NCBI RefSeq assembly: GCF_900091625.1
Contig: NZ_FMIC01000002.1
Location: forward strand, 1,984,001 to 2,048,000
Length of the DNA stretch: 64,000 nt
Direction of reading: 5' to 3'
Source of the DNA: Micromonospora peucetia
GTDB lineage: Bacteria > Actinomycetota > Actinomycetes > Mycobacteriales > Micromonosporaceae
The notes under the pieces are model-generated. The model was not told the origin of the DNA. It ran no database searches and saw only the letters and a program-made list of their open reading frames with translations. Positions within the stretch are counted from its first letter, which is position 1. Each line of letters begins with the position of its first letter. Below are positions 39,524 to 63,600 of the stretch, piece by piece. The position numbers and the translations under genes are program-made.

Positions 39524-39738
39524 CGGGCAAGCGTAGACCTCGACCGGCCCCGCGTGGAGCCTCTGTTACCCGTCGGTTGGCTCACGTTCGGGCCGGTGAT
39601 CGCCACTTTCGCGCCGGTGACCGCCGGGCCCGCCCCCTTGACCCTCGCCCCGATCGAGCCCCGAGGCTCGCCGGCACGCCCGCCCCACACCGCGGGAGCT
39701 CCGCCCACACCCGCCCACACCCACCCCCGCTCCCTTCT

Positions 39739-49812: not shown

Positions 49813-51132
49813 TCATCGACCCGGATCAGGAGTCGGGCCCGGTCCGGCCCGACGAGCGGCGGTACGACCCCCACGCTGCCGCCGACCGCTCCCGCCTCGG
49901 AGGCGGACGACGAGCAGCGCCAGGGTGGCACCGGACAGCGCCGCCGCGGCCAGGAACGTGCCACGTGTCGAGGTGGCCGCCTGGACCGAACCGAGCAGCA
50001 GCGGCGAGACGAACAGGCCAGCGAAGGTGGCGCTGGCCAGCAGGGCGGTGGCCTGGCCTCGTCGGGCGGGTGGGGCGTGTTCGGCCACCATGACGGTCAG
50101 TGCCGGCACGGCCAGTCCCATGCCGATCCCGAACACGGCTGGTGCGACCAACATCAGCACCGGCGCACCGGTCAGCCCGAGGGTGATCAGCGCGGCCGTG
50201 AAAACGGCGAGGGTGACCGCGAGCAGCCGCAACTGGCCCAGGCGGGCCCGGATCCGCGGGTAGCCCAGGCCAACAATGCTCATGACCAGCGACGGGGTAC
50301 CCGTGAAGACCGCCACGACGGCCGTCTCGGTGATGCCGACCTCGGCCAGCCGCAGCGGGAGGAACACCAGCACCCCGTACAACAGCAGGCTGGTCACCGC
50401 CTGGAGGCCGTAGATCCCGACGAGCGCGGGGTGGCCGCGGAGCAGATTCCACAGCGACCCCGACCGGCCCGGGCGGCCGGCCGACACGTCGCCGGAGGCG
50501 TTGGCGGCCCGGCGGCCGGGAAGTGCCCACAGCGTGACCAGGCCGAGCGGCACCCCGAGCAGGTAGACGCCGAACGGCGCGTGCCAGGAGATCCCGCCCA
50601 GCACCCCGCCCAGCAGCGGGAACAGGACTCCGCCCAGGCTGATCGCGGTGGACCGCCAGCCCATCGTCCGGTCCCGGGCCGCCCCCTCGTGGAGGTCGAG
50701 CAGCCCGAGCGTGGTCCCCGCGAAGACCAGCGCCGCACCGACGCCGAACAGCAGGCGGGTGGCGATCAGCAACGGATAGCTGTCGGTGGCCAGACCCGCG
50801 CCGCCGGCGAGGCCGTACAGGATCAGCCCGAGGGCCAGCGGGGTACGCACGCCCCACCGGTCGATGGCGCGGCCGACCAGCGGGCCGGCGAGAGCGAGGG
50901 AGAGTCCGTGCGCGGTCAGGACGAGCCCGGCGGCGGTGCCGCTGATTCGGAGCTCGGTGCGGATCAGTTCGACCACCGGGGTCAGCACCGCGCCCGCGAG
51001 CACGGTCAGCAGGGAGCCGGCGAGCAGGACGGCCAGCGCCGTCCGGCGGCCGGCGACCGGGGCGGTGGTGGGCGCCGCGACGCCGGTCACGAGCGGGCCG
51101 CCGGCCAGGTGAGCGGTCCGTGTCGGCTCCAT
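49813..51132 (-). CDS. MFS exporter (drug:H+ antiporter type)
   Basis: 439 residues with 12 membrane segments starting at about residue 35. Motif A appears as GPLVGRAIDRWGVRTPLALG between helices 2 and 3, and LIATRLLFGVGAALVFAGTTLGL fits motif B. The C-terminus is a basic Gly/Arg-rich tail. ATG 51132 is chosen because a MerR-type promoter ends 6 bases before it. The in-frame TTG at 51153 lies inside that promoter. Substrate unknown. Confidence 0.9.
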   Translation of the reverse strand: MEPTRTAHLAGGPLVTGVAAPTTAPVAGRRTALAVLLAGSLLTVLAGAVLTPVVELIRTELRISGTAAGLVLTAHGLSLALAGPLVGRAIDRWGVRTPLALGLILYGLAGGAGLATDSYPLLIATRLLFGVGAALVFAGTTLGLLDLHEGAARDRTMGWRSTAISLGGVLFPLLGGVLGGISWHAPFGVYLLGVPLGLVTLWALPGRRAANASGDVSAGRPGRSGSLWNLLRGHPALVGIYGLQAVTSLLLYGVLVFLPLRLAEVGITETAVVAVFTGTPSLVMSIVGLGYPRIRARLGQLRLLAVTLAVFTAALITLGLTGAPVLMLVAPAVFGIGMGLAVPALTVMVAEHAPPARRGQATALLASATFAGLFVSPLLLGSVQAATSTRGTFLAAAALSGATLALLVVRLRGGSGRRQRGGRTAARRAGPGPTPDPGR

Positions 51133-51464
51133 GACGTGAGTCTTCAACCTCAACCACAGTCGAAGTCAAGCTGCCAAGCGGCACCGCCGAGAACCGCGGA
51201 GGTGGCGATGGCCCACTGGGTGCCCAGCCGACGGGATTTACCAGGCAGGAGCGTTGTCGGCCATCCGTCGGGCCGTCCCATTTGCGGAACTGCCGGCTGA
51301 TCGGCCGGGTCCGGTCAGCTGGATGGCGGTGCTACGGATGCGCCGCGGCCTCCGGTGTGCGAGCCTCGTCCGAACCATTTTTCACGGGGTCGTGTCACTT
51401 GTTAACCGCCGGGTGTACCCAGCACAGCAGACGGTGACGCCGCCCAGTTCCGGGGAGAAACACT
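51133..51464. other. Divergent intergenic region between MFS exporter and roadblock genes
   Basis: About 330 bases. The left end holds the MFS promoter (51139-51169). The right part (about 51370-51415) is A/T-richer, with TTTTTCACG and CTTGTTAACC, and may carry the promoter for the roadblock pair, but no clear -10 is seen. No gene is supported here. Confidence 0.55.
51139..51169 (-). promoter_or_regulatory. MerR-type promoter of the MFS exporter
   Basis: On the minus strand TTGACT and AAGACT are separated by 19 bp, the long spacer typical of MerR-activated promoters. The spacer holds an imperfect inverted repeat (ACTTCGAC/GTTGAGGT). ATG 51132 lies 6 bases after the -10. The sequence aligns at 20 of 31 positions with the promoter at 60146-60176. 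Confidence 0.6.
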
Positions 51465-58610: not shown

Positions 58611-60068
58611 TCAGCCGGCGCGGATCCCGGACACGCCGGGCACCACCCGGCCCGCCAGCACGACGCCCAGCAGGGCCAGCCCGCAGGCCACCGCGAGGGT
58701 GCCGGCGTAGCTGCCCGGTCCCGGAGCCGCACCGGCGGCGAGCACCGCGCCGGTGAGCGCCAGCACGGTCGCCGCGAAGAGCGAGTCGCCCAGTTGCAGC
58801 GAGGAGCTGTTGCGGCCCTGCTCGCCTGGGGCGGACAGTTCCAGCGTGAGAACCGACAGCGAGGGGTAGAGCAGACCCATGCCGAGGCCCGCGCCGGCCC
58901 AGCCGAGCACGCCGACCCAGACCGGCACCGCCGGCGCAACGGCGAGCGTGACCACGGCCGTGCCGGCGGCGATGCAGATCAGACCCGCCCTCGGCAGGGT
59001 GGCCCGGGAGCGCGGCGCGGGCATCCGCCCCTGCGTCCAGGCACCCGCCGACCAGGCGAGCGCGCCGGTGGTCAGGACCAGGCCGGCGGCGGTCGGCGAC
59101 AGCCCGCGCTCCCGGGAGAGCATCAGCGGGATCACCACCTCCGCGCCGACGAACGCGGCCGCGGCGAGCCCGCGCAGTCCGATCACCGTGGGCAGTCCCC
59201 GGCCGGCACGCAGAAACCCGGCCGGCAGCAGCCGGGGCGCGCAGACCAGCAACCCGACCAGCGCCAGGGCCACCAGCCCGACGGCGGCAGCGCCGCGCTG
59301 CTGCCCCCCGACGTGCAACAGTGCGGCGCTCACCGCCGCCCCACCGGCCCAGCCGATCCGGACCGCCGCGCCGGCCGGCAGCCCCGTCACCGTGGTCGCG
59401 CCGACCGCGCGCAGACCGGGGTGGATCAGCAGCACCGCCGGCACCGCCACCGCCGGCACCGCCAGGAAGACCCAGCGCCAGCCGAGGTGTTCCACGATCA
59501 GGCCGGCCAGCGCCGGCCCGACCAGCGACGGTACGACCCACGCGGCGGCGAACGCCGCGAAGATCCGCCGGTGCAGCGCCTCCGGGTACGCCCGCCCGAC
59601 GATCACGTAGAGCGCCACCGAGAGCAGGCCGGAGCCGAAGCCCTGCACGGCACGACCGGCGACCATGACGCCCATGCTCGTGGCGCTGCCGGCGAGCACC
59701 AGTCCCAGCACGAACCAGACGAGCCCGTGCCACATCGGAGCCCGGGGACCCCGCGAGTCGCACCAGATGCCGGAGACGACCATGGCGAGCACGCCGGCGG
59801 CGAAGGTGCCCCCGAAGGCGATCCCGTAGAGGGCCAACCCGTCGAGACTGCGGGCGACGGTCGGCATGGCGGTGCCCACCGCCAGCGCCTCGAAGGCGAG
59901 CAGCGAGATCAGCGCGACGCTGCCCACCGTCATGGCCCGCAGCCGGGGCGCGAGGAGTCCGGCCTCGCCGGCGACCGGGACGGTGGGGGCGTCGGCTCGT
60001 GGAGAGGACCGCCTGGCTGACCGCGCTGCCGTGTCGGTCACCTCCGGCCCGCCGGACGCGGCAGCCAC
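58611..60068 (-). CDS. MFS exporter (14-helix drug-type)
   Basis: 485 residues. A polar N-terminal arm (1 to about 45) precedes 13-14 membrane helices. FEALAVGTAMPTVARSLDGL is the usual first-helix signature, and the motif A-like region is SGIWCDSRGPRAPMWHGL. GRAVQGFGSGLLSVALYVIVGRAYP fits motif B/C of drug exporters. The start is uncertain: GTG 60068 lacks a ribosome site, and GTG 60041 overlaps the stop of a 33-codon leader frame by GTGA. The promoter upstream is of MerR type. Confidence 0.88.
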   Translation of the reverse strand: MAAASGGPEVTDTAARSARRSSPRADAPTVPVAGEAGLLAPRLRAMTVGSVALISLLAFEALAVGTAMPTVARSLDGLALYGIAFGGTFAAGVLAMVVSGIWCDSRGPRAPMWHGLVWFVLGLVLAGSATSMGVMVAGRAVQGFGSGLLSVALYVIVGRAYPEALHRRIFAAFAAAWVVPSLVGPALAGLIVEHLGWRWVFLAVPAVAVPAVLLIHPGLRAVGATTVTGLPAGAAVRIGWAGGAAVSAALLHVGGQQRGAAAVGLVALALVGLLVCAPRLLPAGFLRAGRGLPTVIGLRGLAAAAFVGAEVVIPLMLSRERGLSPTAAGLVLTTGALAWSAGAWTQGRMPAPRSRATLPRAGLICIAAGTAVVTLAVAPAVPVWVGVLGWAGAGLGMGLLYPSLSVLTLELSAPGEQGRNSSSLQLGDSLFAATVLALTGAVLAAGAAPGPGSYAGTLAVACGLALLGVVLAGRVVPGVSGIRAG

Positions 60069-60139
60069 CGCGGCCGGTGGCCGCCGCGGGCCCGTGGATC
60101 CGACAGGCCCGCCTCGGCGCGGAGCAGTTCGATCAGCAT
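60038..60139 (-). CDS. Possible 33-codon leader peptide upstream of the MFS gene
   Basis: ATG 60139 lies 6 bases after the MerR-type -10 box, so it would be the first codon of a leaderless message. The frame (MLIELLRAEAGLSDP... ending AGRR) stops at 60038-60040, overlapping the in-frame MFS GTG at 60041 by GTGA. This would couple leader and exporter translation. There is no homology that I recognise; it could be a chance frame. Confidence 0.3.
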   Translation of the reverse strand: MLIELLRAEAGLSDPRARGGHRPRWLPRPAGRR

Positions 60140-60145
60140 GTGCTC

Positions 60146-60176
60146 AGCATCGGGCCTCAACCCCGATTGAGGTCAA
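60146..60176 (-). promoter_or_regulatory. MerR-type promoter of the second MFS exporter
   Basis: On the minus strand TTGACC and GATGCT are separated by exactly 19 bp. The spacer contains the perfect inverted repeat CCTCAA-N6-TTGAGG (60155-60172). MerR-family activators bind such repeats and unwind the long spacer. The same layout precedes the MFS gene at 49813-51132. The MerR gene is not in the window. Confidence 0.7.
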
Positions 60177-60190
60177 GGGTGACCCGGCTC

Positions 60191-60451
60191 TCAGGCCGCC
60201 TCCAGCGCGTCCCCGAGCCCCTTCGCCAGCCCCGACAGGTGCTGGTCCGCCAGCACGTGCCCGCCGCCGATCACCAGTGCCACCGGCCACTCGACGATCT
60301 GGAGCGCGGCGAGCAACCCGACGCCCGCGTAGAAGGCGAGCCGGTCCGGCGAGGGTACGGCGACCTCGCCCAGCAGCGGAATCTCCACCCGCCGACTGAA
60401 CGCCCGGATCGTCTCGTGCGTCCCGCTGAGCTGTCGTGTCAGTGTGCTCAT
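60191..60451 (-). CDS. Small membrane-associated protein
   Basis: 86 residues. A polar N-terminus (MSTLTRQLSGTHETIRAFSRRVEIPLLGEVAVPSPDR) is followed by a hydrophobic helix (about 38-62, LAFYAGVGLLAALQIVEWPVALVIGGGHVLA) and a short tail with GLAKGLGDALEAA. GGGGAGG is 6 bases before ATG 60451. It is divergent from the large P-type ATPase gene, about 240 bases away, and may belong with it, but no family is recognised. Confidence 0.65.
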   Translation of the reverse strand: MSTLTRQLSGTHETIRAFSRRVEIPLLGEVAVPSPDRLAFYAGVGLLAALQIVEWPVALVIGGGHVLADQHLSGLAKGLGDALEAA

Positions 60452-60692: not shown

Positions 60693-63600
60693 ATGACCTC
60701 GCTGGGTCGTGCCGCCGGCCGGCTCCTTCCACCGATCGCCGTGCCGCGTGTCGTCAATGAGGCGTCCCGAAGCGTCGGCGCAGCCGCGACCCGGGTGGCC
60801 CGGGTGGCCGGGCTGACCCGGCGTCGGGTCTGGTCCCGCCACGGCCGGCACCACATCGAGGTGCTCGGGGTCTGCCAGGACGGCGGCGACGTCCTCGCGC
60901 GCCAGGTCGAGGCGGCGTTGGAGCGGATGCCCGGGGTGCAGTGGGCCCGGGTCAACGCCCCGTCCGGCCGGGTGGTCGTCGCCGTCGGTACGCCGGAGCC
61001 TGCCCTGCGGGACCTAATCGCGACCGTCGCCCGCACCGAACGCGCCTGCCCACACGAGCCGGACCCGGGAATCCCGCCGCCGCACCCGCCCGAGGAGGGG
61101 CCGCGTACGCCACGCACCCTCGGCGCGCTGGCCTCCGACGCCCTCGGCCTGACCATCTCCGCCGCCACCCGGATCCTGCCGTTCACGCCGGTGCCCGGGG
61201 AGGTCGCCGGCCTGCTCGTCGCGGTCGACCTGCACCCGAAGCTGCACGCGCTGGCGGACCGGGGACTACGCGCCGACCCCCGCGCCGATCTGCTGTTCCC
61301 GCTCGCCGAGGCGGTCGTGCTGGGCCTGACGGGCAGCTGGGCCGGGCTCGTGCTCGACGGCGCGCAGCGGGTGGTGCAGTGGGGCGAGGCGCGAGCCCAG
61401 GCCCGCGCGTGGGCGCAGGCGGAGCATCGGCTGACCGGGCATCCGGAGCGGGCCGCCGCCCAGGCGCCGAAGGTCGAGCGGCCCCGGCCGAAGCCGGACG
61501 GCCCCGTCGAGAAGTACATCAGCCGGATGCTCACCGCGGGCGCCGCCGCAGCGGCCACGATGCCGGTCGTCGGCCCGAAGCGGGCTGCCGCGCTGGGCCT
61601 CTCCACCCTGCCCAAGGCCCCTGGCAGCGGACGCGAAGGGTACGCCTCGCAGCTCGGTCTGCTCCTCGCCCGGCGTGGGGTGATCGCGATGGACCGCAGC
61701 GTCCTGCGCGAACTGGACCGGATCGACACCCTGGTGTTGGACGCCGCCGTGCTCGGCTCCGACCGGGGCGTGCTGGCGGACCTGGCGCCGCTGGCCGGGG
61801 CGGACACCGGGCAGGTGGCGGCGCGCGCGTTCGCCCTCTTCGACCCCGCCGCGCCCGGGGAGCTGCGGCATGCCGACGGCTGGCGGCTCGGACCGCTGGA
61901 CGCGCTGGACGTCGAGAACCCGGGCGACACCGCCGACAGCCGGCGGCTGCGCGACGCGGGCGGCACCATGCTCGGCCTGTCCGACGGCGACACCCTCGCC
62001 GCCGTACTGCGGGTCGAGCCGGAGCCGGCGCCGGGCGTCGACGTCCTGCCGACCGTCGCCCGGCAGGCGGGCCTGCGGCTGGTCGTGGCCGGCGACGACG
62101 AGCGGCGGTACGGCTTCGCCGACGCCCACCTGCCGGGTCGCGACCGGCTGGCCGAGTCGGTGCGGGCGCTGCAACGCGACGGGGCGGTGGTGATGGTGGT
62201 CTCCGCCGACGGCGCCGCGCTCGGGGTCGCCGACTGCGGCCTGGGGCTCTCCGCCCCCGAGGACCTGCCGCCCTGGGGCGCGCACCTGCTGGTCGGTGCC
62301 GACCTGCCGGTGGTGGCACTGATGATCGAGGCGACCGGGGTGGCCCGCCGGATGAGCCGGCAGAACATCGGCCTGGCCGTGGCCGGCACCGGCCTCGGCG
62401 CGCTGGGGGCGCTCACCGCGGCACCCGCACAGTTGCCCGGCCGCGCCGTCGCGGCCGTGAACGGGGCAGCCGCACTGGCCTTCGCCCACGGCGTCCTGCG
62501 AGCGCGCCGGCTGCCCGGCCCGGCGGACACCGCGGCGCCGGCCGTCACCGCCTGGCACCTGATGCCGTCCTCAACCGTGCTCGACCAGCTCGGCAGCGGC
62601 CCGGACGGGCTCGCCACCGGCGAGGCCGAGCGCCGCCGGGGCGACGGAACCGGTCAGCCCACGGGCCCGACGGGGCTGCTCCGGGCCTTCGTCGACGAGC
62701 TGGCCAACCCGCTCACCCCGGTCCTCGCCGCCGGGGCGGTGCTCTCCGCCACCTTCGGCTCGCTGGTCGACGCAGCCCTGGTCGGCGGGGTGGTCGGCGG
62801 GTCGGCACTGCTCGGGGCGGTGCACCAGCACAACACCGAGCGGTCGCTGGCCGAGCTGCTGTCCCGCTCGGCGGTGACCGCCCGGGTACGCCGGGACGGC
62901 GCGGAACGGATGCTGCCGGCCGATGACCTGGTGCCCGGGGACGTCATCGTCCTCGAATCGGGGGATGCCGTCCCGGCCGACTGCCGGGTGCTGGAATCGG
63001 CCGGCCTGGAGACCGACGAGTCCTCGCTCACCGGCGAGTCGCTGCCGGTCGGCAAGACCGACCAGCCCGTCGTCGCCGCCGCCGTCGCCGACCGGCGGTC
63101 GATGCTCTACGAGGGCACCACCGTCGCCGCCGGCAACGGAACAGCGGTGGTGGTCGCGACCGGCGCGAACACCGAGGCTGGGCGGAGCCTGGCGATGGCC
63201 CGGCAGGCCCCGCCGTCGAGCGGTGTGGAGGCGCGGCTGGGCCGGTTGACCCGGGCGGCGATCCCGCTGGCCGCCGGCTCGGCGGTTGCGGTGGCCGGCG
63301 CGGGGCTGCTGCGGGGCGTACCGCTGGCGGAGACCGCCGCGACCGCCGCGAACCTGGCCGTCGCGTCCGTGCCGGAGGGGCTGCCGTTCCTGGTCAGCGC
63401 CGCGCAGTTGGCCGCCGCGCGACGGCTGGCGGAACACGGCGCGCTGGTCCGCAACCCGCGCACCATCGAGGCCCTCGGCCGGGTGGACGTGCTCTGCTTC
63501 GACAAGACCGGCACCCTCACCGAGGGGGAGCTGATGCTCGCCGGGGTCGGCGACGACGGCCGGTACGCACCGGTCGACCGGCTCGACGGCGGCCTGTCGA

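Follow-up and report, generated by a model that had tools for sequence, protein, structure and literature searches.

The element on the minus strand just upstream of an MFS exporter gene (exporter 2) in this Micromonospora peucetia DNA is very probably a promoter activated by SoxR, and a second site of the same type stands before another MFS exporter gene (exporter 1), the two genes being 9 kb apart. We predict SoxR control with high confidence for exporter 2 and with moderate confidence for exporter 1. The original prediction had proposed that one MerR activator governs the two exporters as a small multidrug regulon. The single activator stands by inference, since the box is present at both exporters and relatives of both adjoin soxR. 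The MerR class stands as well, but not the drug-binding type: the regulator is most likely the redox-responsive [2Fe-2S] protein SoxR, and the regulon would answer to redox-active compounds instead of being a multidrug one. Nor would it consist of exporters only, as sites with zero to two mismatches also precede questin-oxidase-like, quinone-oxidoreductase-like and other genes.

Promoter layout and conservation

In the window, by which we mean the whole 64,000-nucleotide stretch analysed (G000:C2:1984001-2048000), exporter 2 is encoded on the minus strand at 58611..60041 as a protein of 476 aa with a Pfam MFS_1 match, computed from a longer start at GTG 60068. That start, given in the ORF-finder listing, was rejected; comparison places the conserved start at GTG 60041. 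Exporter 1 (49813..51132, minus strand, 439 aa from ATG 51132) matches Pfam MFS_1 when queried without its first codon. No NCBIfam model above its cut-off was found for exporter 2, nor for exporter 1 among the matches listed (25 of 30). Judged by its relatives, exporter 2 is a predicted MfsA-like protein; peaks in a crude hydropathy count number 15 in exporter 2 and 11 in exporter 1, and MfsA-type DHA14 exporters have 14 transmembrane helices. Just upstream of the exporter-2 promoter, on the same strand, 60191-60451 encodes a small protein of 86 residues for which no Pfam family was found.

The exporter-2 promoter comprises a −35 element TTGACC (60171..60176, minus strand; TTGAC in 29 of 29 aligned genus sites), a −10 element GATGCT 19 bp away (60146..60151; xAxGCT in the 29 aligned genus sites) and, between them, an exact SoxR-box-type dyad, CCTCAA-TCGGGG-TTGAGG (60155..60172). 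TTGACC-N19-GATGCT with an internal CCTCAA-N6-TTGAGG had been described in the original prediction and lies on the minus strand exactly where it was placed; the 20 of 31 identities claimed with the exporter-1 site at 51169-51139 (TTGACTTCGACTGTGGTTGAGGTTGAAGACT) were recovered on realignment. This second promoter, TTGACT-N19-AAGACT (51139..51169, minus strand), has the same 19-bp spacer, and ATG 51132 follows 6 nt after its −10. Its dyad, CTTCGA-N6-TTGAGG, is imperfect, with two mismatches and a matrix score of 13.0 against 44.9-58.4 for the training sites, which counts against the SoxR reading. With a 19-bp spacer and a dyad between −35 and −10, both are predicted promoters of the MerR-family type.

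Across both strands of the window (127,940 places) just two other places show a 20/31 likeness to the exporter-2 site, namely the exporter-1 site and 39638-39668 on the plus strand, and because of this third place the likeness of the two promoters alone is suggestive and not proof. The bare dyad, allowing two mismatches, occurs in the window at the two exporter promoters only; 13 of 100 shuffles reach two matches, so the bare dyad is weak evidence by itself. Allowing one mismatch, it occurs at two places in the whole genome, and a reversed-pattern control gave the same counts, again to the detriment of the SoxR reading. The full promoter pattern, TTGACNTNRA-N6-TTGAGG-N4-A-N3-T, matches exactly at three places in the 7.37-Mb genome, namely exporter 1, exporter 2 and G000:C2:3015687; if two mismatches are tolerated the count rises to eight, and the reversed pattern used as control has none. 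Our confidence in SoxR and in the rival readings is left unchanged by the bare-dyad counts and by the likeness within the window, because conservation and linkage carry it.

Of 61 genus genomes, 55 yielded an orthologue of exporter 2, in several cases as a partial match (G010, at a contig end, among them), and G003, G015, G017, G042, G043 and G055 have none. The box lies just upstream in 53 of the 55, a conservation that argues for a real promoter; the count sums 29 sites from 30 oriented loci, 18 from another 19 stretches and one from each of the six remaining genomes, as found by pattern scan. Among the oriented loci the miss is G013, whose exporter 2 lacks a site within 1.5 kb, a point against SoxR; among the further stretches it is G010, where no site was found in a stretch that ends at the contig edge. 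The weakest of these 19 by matrix score are G011 (25.0) and G014 (33.6). In G013, boxes (L147, L145) adjoin a P-type ATPase gene and lie about 2 kb upstream of exporter 2; the ATPase is homologous, by eye, to that at window position 60693, and the box positions suggest a rearrangement.

The strict pattern matched 78 times in 50 of the 61 genus genomes and its control not at all, with 42 sites at exporter 2 and 36 elsewhere (G010 is outside that list). In one clade of eight genomes the left half of the box reads TTGACATGAA, which breaks the palindrome and weighs against the SoxR reading. Relatives of exporter 2 at 71% identity or above make up 64 of the 80 named loci (Micromonospora 62, Verrucosispora 2). 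Beyond the genus the relaxed pattern missed 7 of 17 exporter-2 loci, also contrary to SoxR; six of the seven have a weaker copy (matrix scores 20.3-39.4) and L228 scores just 6.6. Exporter 1 is rare and patchy, being found at E ≤1e-40 in 8 of 150 family genomes, the window's own included. The relaxed pattern picks up the box at its relatives in G003 (a perfect copy), G164, G176 and G169, and those in G091 and G162 have weaker copies; G177 carries two copies of the gene and a box was found at neither, which disfavours SoxR. The predicted exporter-2 promoter is kept genus-wide, and the predicted exporter-1 promoter is kept in most of its few relatives.

SoxR as the candidate regulator

The genome has a single recognisable SoxR gene, at G000:C2:2232412-2232873, 188 kb from the window site, and its product carries a CX2CXCX5C cluster (CIGCGCLSLQRC). 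The protein scores 200.9 bits against TIGR01950, the SoxR equivalog model (cut-off 116.9), and matches the solved SoxR 2zhg at E 1.2e-43 along 138 residues; the next match within the genome has E 4e-12. SoxR is present at 76% identity or above in 60 of the 61 genus genomes.

Linkage was observed among relatives of both exporters. Twelve proteobacterial homologues of exporter 2 (11 from Lysobacteraceae, one from Delftia; 53-59% identity) were found, and at nine loci, all from Lysobacteraceae (L300, L301, L303, L304, L312, L313, L316, L317 and L320), a divergent SoxR with CX2CXCX5C lies upstream with the box at its start, the box of L320 being a weaker copy. The interval between soxR and exporter is empty in three of the nine and holds one gene in five; at L300, the one of the five tested, this gene encodes a zinc-type oxidoreductase. 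At the other three of the 12 loci (L305, L311 and L315) SoxR was not found in the fetched stretch, which speaks against the assignment. For exporter 1, the homologue in G164 (L233) lies in the order soxR, box, FMN reductase, exporter. In relatives, linkage in this way ties both exporter families to a predicted SoxR; within the window's own genome the box is the one tie. A box within 1.5 kb of soxR, as autoregulation might require, was found by the relaxed pattern at none of 30 loci, a further result against SoxR.

The arrangement resembles that of mfsA and soxR in Stenotrophomonas maltophilia. In excerpts of PMC4411124 the mfsA promoter has TTGACC, 19 bp, CATGCT and the box CCTCAACTGCAGTTGAGG, to which SoxR binding was shown; the core of this box and of the E. 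coli SoxR box quoted there equals the exporter-2 dyad CCTCAA-N6-TTGAGG. The two systems share an MFS exporter, TTGACC and the 19-bp spacing, with a −10 of CATGCT there and GATGCT here, and the exporter-2 homologues in related Lysobacteraceae share the soxR-box layout; the likeness to MfsA drawn here is one of promoter and of layout in relatives. According to the same excerpts soxR is divergent from mfsA, whereas here it is 188 kb away, and the mfsA mRNA begins with 39-42 untranslated nt, in contrast to the 6-nt distance from −10 to start codon, and the leader ORF, seen here.

We regard it as highly unlikely that another MerR-family activator, whether a drug-binding one resembling TipA or BmrR or a short MerR of this genome, drives one or both promoters. 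The genome has 26 MerR_1 matches, none inside the window; one is SoxR and several are TipA-like or of unknown type by eye. These matches and the imperfect dyad of exporter 1, like the CCTCGA-N6-TCGAGG of its G164 relative, would suit such a regulator; yet SoxR is the sole MerR found beside relatives of both exporters. MerR genes called around the 35 boxes whose surroundings were fetched comprise one SoxR (L141), three SoxR-like genes whose products lack the cysteine cluster (L129, L134 and L148) and one other (L157), about 1.6 kb from a two-mismatch site, and a SoxR-like gene of the cluster-less kind was not detected in the window's genome. It is the linkage to soxR among relatives of both exporters that led us to reject a drug-binding MerR of BmrR or TipA type as the favoured regulator. 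It is also unlikely that SoxR drives exporter 2 while the exporter-1 site is degenerate or another regulator's, leaving no shared regulon. The low matrix score of that site, the equal 20/31 match at 39638-39668 and the patchy distribution of exporter 1 all fit this alternative, but the site has lost neither −35 nor spacer, GGTTGAGG is intact and ATG still follows after 6 nt, and four relatives have the box, one perfect (G003) and one adjoining soxR (G164). A single regulator common to both exporters, predicted to be SoxR, is the simplest reading.

The cluster-less SoxR-like protein, which ends before the cysteine cluster and is without the ligands of the usual [2Fe-2S] cluster, adjoins the box in L129, L134 and L148, with a similar match in L160. 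In L148 it scores 127.3 bits to TIGR01950, above the cut-off, and its gene and an NmrA-like NAD(P)H-binding gene point away from each other; a similar gene follows the box in L129 and L160. Such sites, a point against the SoxR reading, imply that in other species the box can also serve a different regulator.

Further sites and the predicted regulon

Elsewhere in the genome, a site at G000:C2:1967097 with one mismatch precedes a questin-oxidase-like gene, whose ATG lies 7 nt after the −10. Two-mismatch sites precede a zinc-type dehydrogenase gene (G000:C2:6538864; closest to PIG3 quinone oxidoreductases, below the model's cut-off) and a DUF4440 gene (G000:C2:3191114), and two more lie at G000:C2:108140 and G000:C2:2307964. 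The third exact match, G000:C2:3015687, stands before a 172-residue ORF for which no Pfam family was found. In Streptomyces coelicolor, according to excerpts of PMC4146615, an endogenous quinone antibiotic sets off a SoxR regulon whose members are an ABC transporter, oxidoreductases, a monooxygenase, an epimerase and a quinone oxidoreductase. That regulon is small and joins a transporter to redox enzymes, as here, and its quinone-type enzyme classes fit in part those with sites here. S. coelicolor soxR is not autoregulated according to those excerpts, and likewise no box was found near soxR at the 30 loci scanned here; the transporter there is of ABC type (SCO7008), the word MFS being absent from the main text of PMC4146615, and here it is MFS.

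In five genus genomes a box with the TTGACATGAA left half lies shortly upstream of nickel superoxide dismutase genes (L098 and L126 in G034, L111 in G028, L119 in G040, L125 in G029 and L132 in G052; Pfam Sod_Ni was checked on L126 alone). Superoxide dismutase under SoxR control, if true, would be notable in actinomycetes. The TTGACATGAA variant co-occurs with the SoxR residues LTIGEL and RYAR[AV]EL in 8 of 8 genomes; in the other 22 fetched genomes LTIGEL occurs solely in G014, there with RYARTEL. A co-drift of SoxR and its operator is possible, and with one clade involved common descent may explain the association.

Start codons, leader ORFs and a proposed mechanism

A start codon follows the −10 in all 79 distinct sequences counted, after 6 nt in 57 and 7 nt in 22 (L043, L048, L268 and L314, in which the anchor is absent, were left out). 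With a relaxed anchor (n=80), this start codon belongs to the exporter itself in 48 and to a leader ORF in 32. The 80 derive from 112 loci after removal of 29 duplicates, L050 (site absent) and L048 and L268 (anchor absent, with GTGA also present by eye), 16 of the 80 named exporter-2 relatives, from other genera, having been excluded beforehand. The leaders span 9-53 codons in 18 lengths and are variable in peptide sequence, with a constant geometry: in all 32 the reading frame stands in one fixed relation to that of the exporter, and the stop is TGA with a purine before it (G in 29, A in 3), so that TGA overlaps RTG. From the coupled RTG to a conserved exporter motif there are 15-21 residues (33 in one case), and from direct starts 15-22.

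In the window the leader ORF occupies 60038..60139 on the minus strand, with 33 codons (MLIELLRAEAGLSDPRARGGHRPRWLPRPAGRR) and TGA; its start and the RTGA overlap are conserved, and its TGA overlaps the exporter-2 GTG as GTGA at 60041-60038. With just 6 nt between the −10 and this ATG, the exporter-2 mRNA is probably leaderless, as judged from the position of that −10.

It is quite unlikely that the leader is untranslated and the overlap a by-product of sequence make-up. In GC-rich DNA a G before TGA yields GTGA whenever the frame fits, so that a single case is not rare; the peptides abound in R, P, A and G; a GGAGG abuts the exporter-2 GTG, too near for usual SD spacing and outside the range searched. 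The 32 cases are also related: six switches between leader and direct states, at least three on starred branches, are required on a tree built from 90 proteins, 71 of them different, the tree having been made by a quick method with L295, L297 and L321 as long branches of unsure placement. Against this, frame, TGA and purine are kept in 32 of 32 over the 18 lengths, in none of the 32 does the stretch 4-19 nt ahead of the coupled start contain an SD-like word, and the same architecture is known in mycobacteria from transcription-start and ribosome profiling data, according to excerpts of PMC4633059. There Shell and colleagues describe leaderless small ORFs of 5-50 residues whose TGA overlaps the next start, in some cases with placement and coupling alone conserved while the peptide varies. 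The small ORF and the TGA overlap, with a probable leaderless start, are common to the window leader; here, by comparison with the mycobacterial cases in those excerpts, one SoxR-type promoter recurs across the genus and alternates with direct starts, with leaderlessness read from the −10.

Promoter and leader ORF both belong to known kinds, and the window examples are new. Among the matches listed in literature searches, no title, and none of the excerpts consulted, described an alternation of leader and direct start at one promoter; no title on SoxR with Micromonospora or leaderless concerned this promoter, and nothing on SoxR with Lysobacter and exporter was on topic by title and abstract.

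SoxR acts by distorting DNA, which corrects an over-long spacer. Passages of PMC4411124 echo this established mode of action. At the exporters, SoxR would occupy the dyad between −35 and −10 elements whose 19-bp separation is too wide for unaided RNA polymerase. Once quinones or other redox-active compounds had oxidised its [2Fe-2S] cluster, the protein would distort the DNA so that the two elements align and transcription starts. The mRNA would be leaderless, since it probably begins at or beside the start codon that follows the −10 by 6 nt. In the window this codon would open the 33-codon leader, and ribosomes would stop at its TGA and restart on the overlapping exporter-2 GTG. Exporter 1 would use a weaker copy of the promoter and a direct leaderless start. 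We advance only as speculation the broader idea that throughout the genus a leaderless start codon is held in place by the SoxR-type promoter, behind which evolution has repeatedly swapped the exporter and a leader ORF of free length, the RTGA overlap handing ribosomes on. If true, the leader would add a translational gate, and exporter output would depend on redox state, through SoxR, and on the state of translating ribosomes, ribosome-targeting antibiotics being an example of the latter input.

The leader ORF corrects the start of exporter 2, and the natural series of the same promoter with and without a leader suits tests of leaderless translation and coupling. Two exporters that might have passed for generic drug pumps can now be named and be tested with a defined class of inducers (quinones, phenazines and viologens), and with them comes the outline of a predicted SoxR regulon in Micromonospora.
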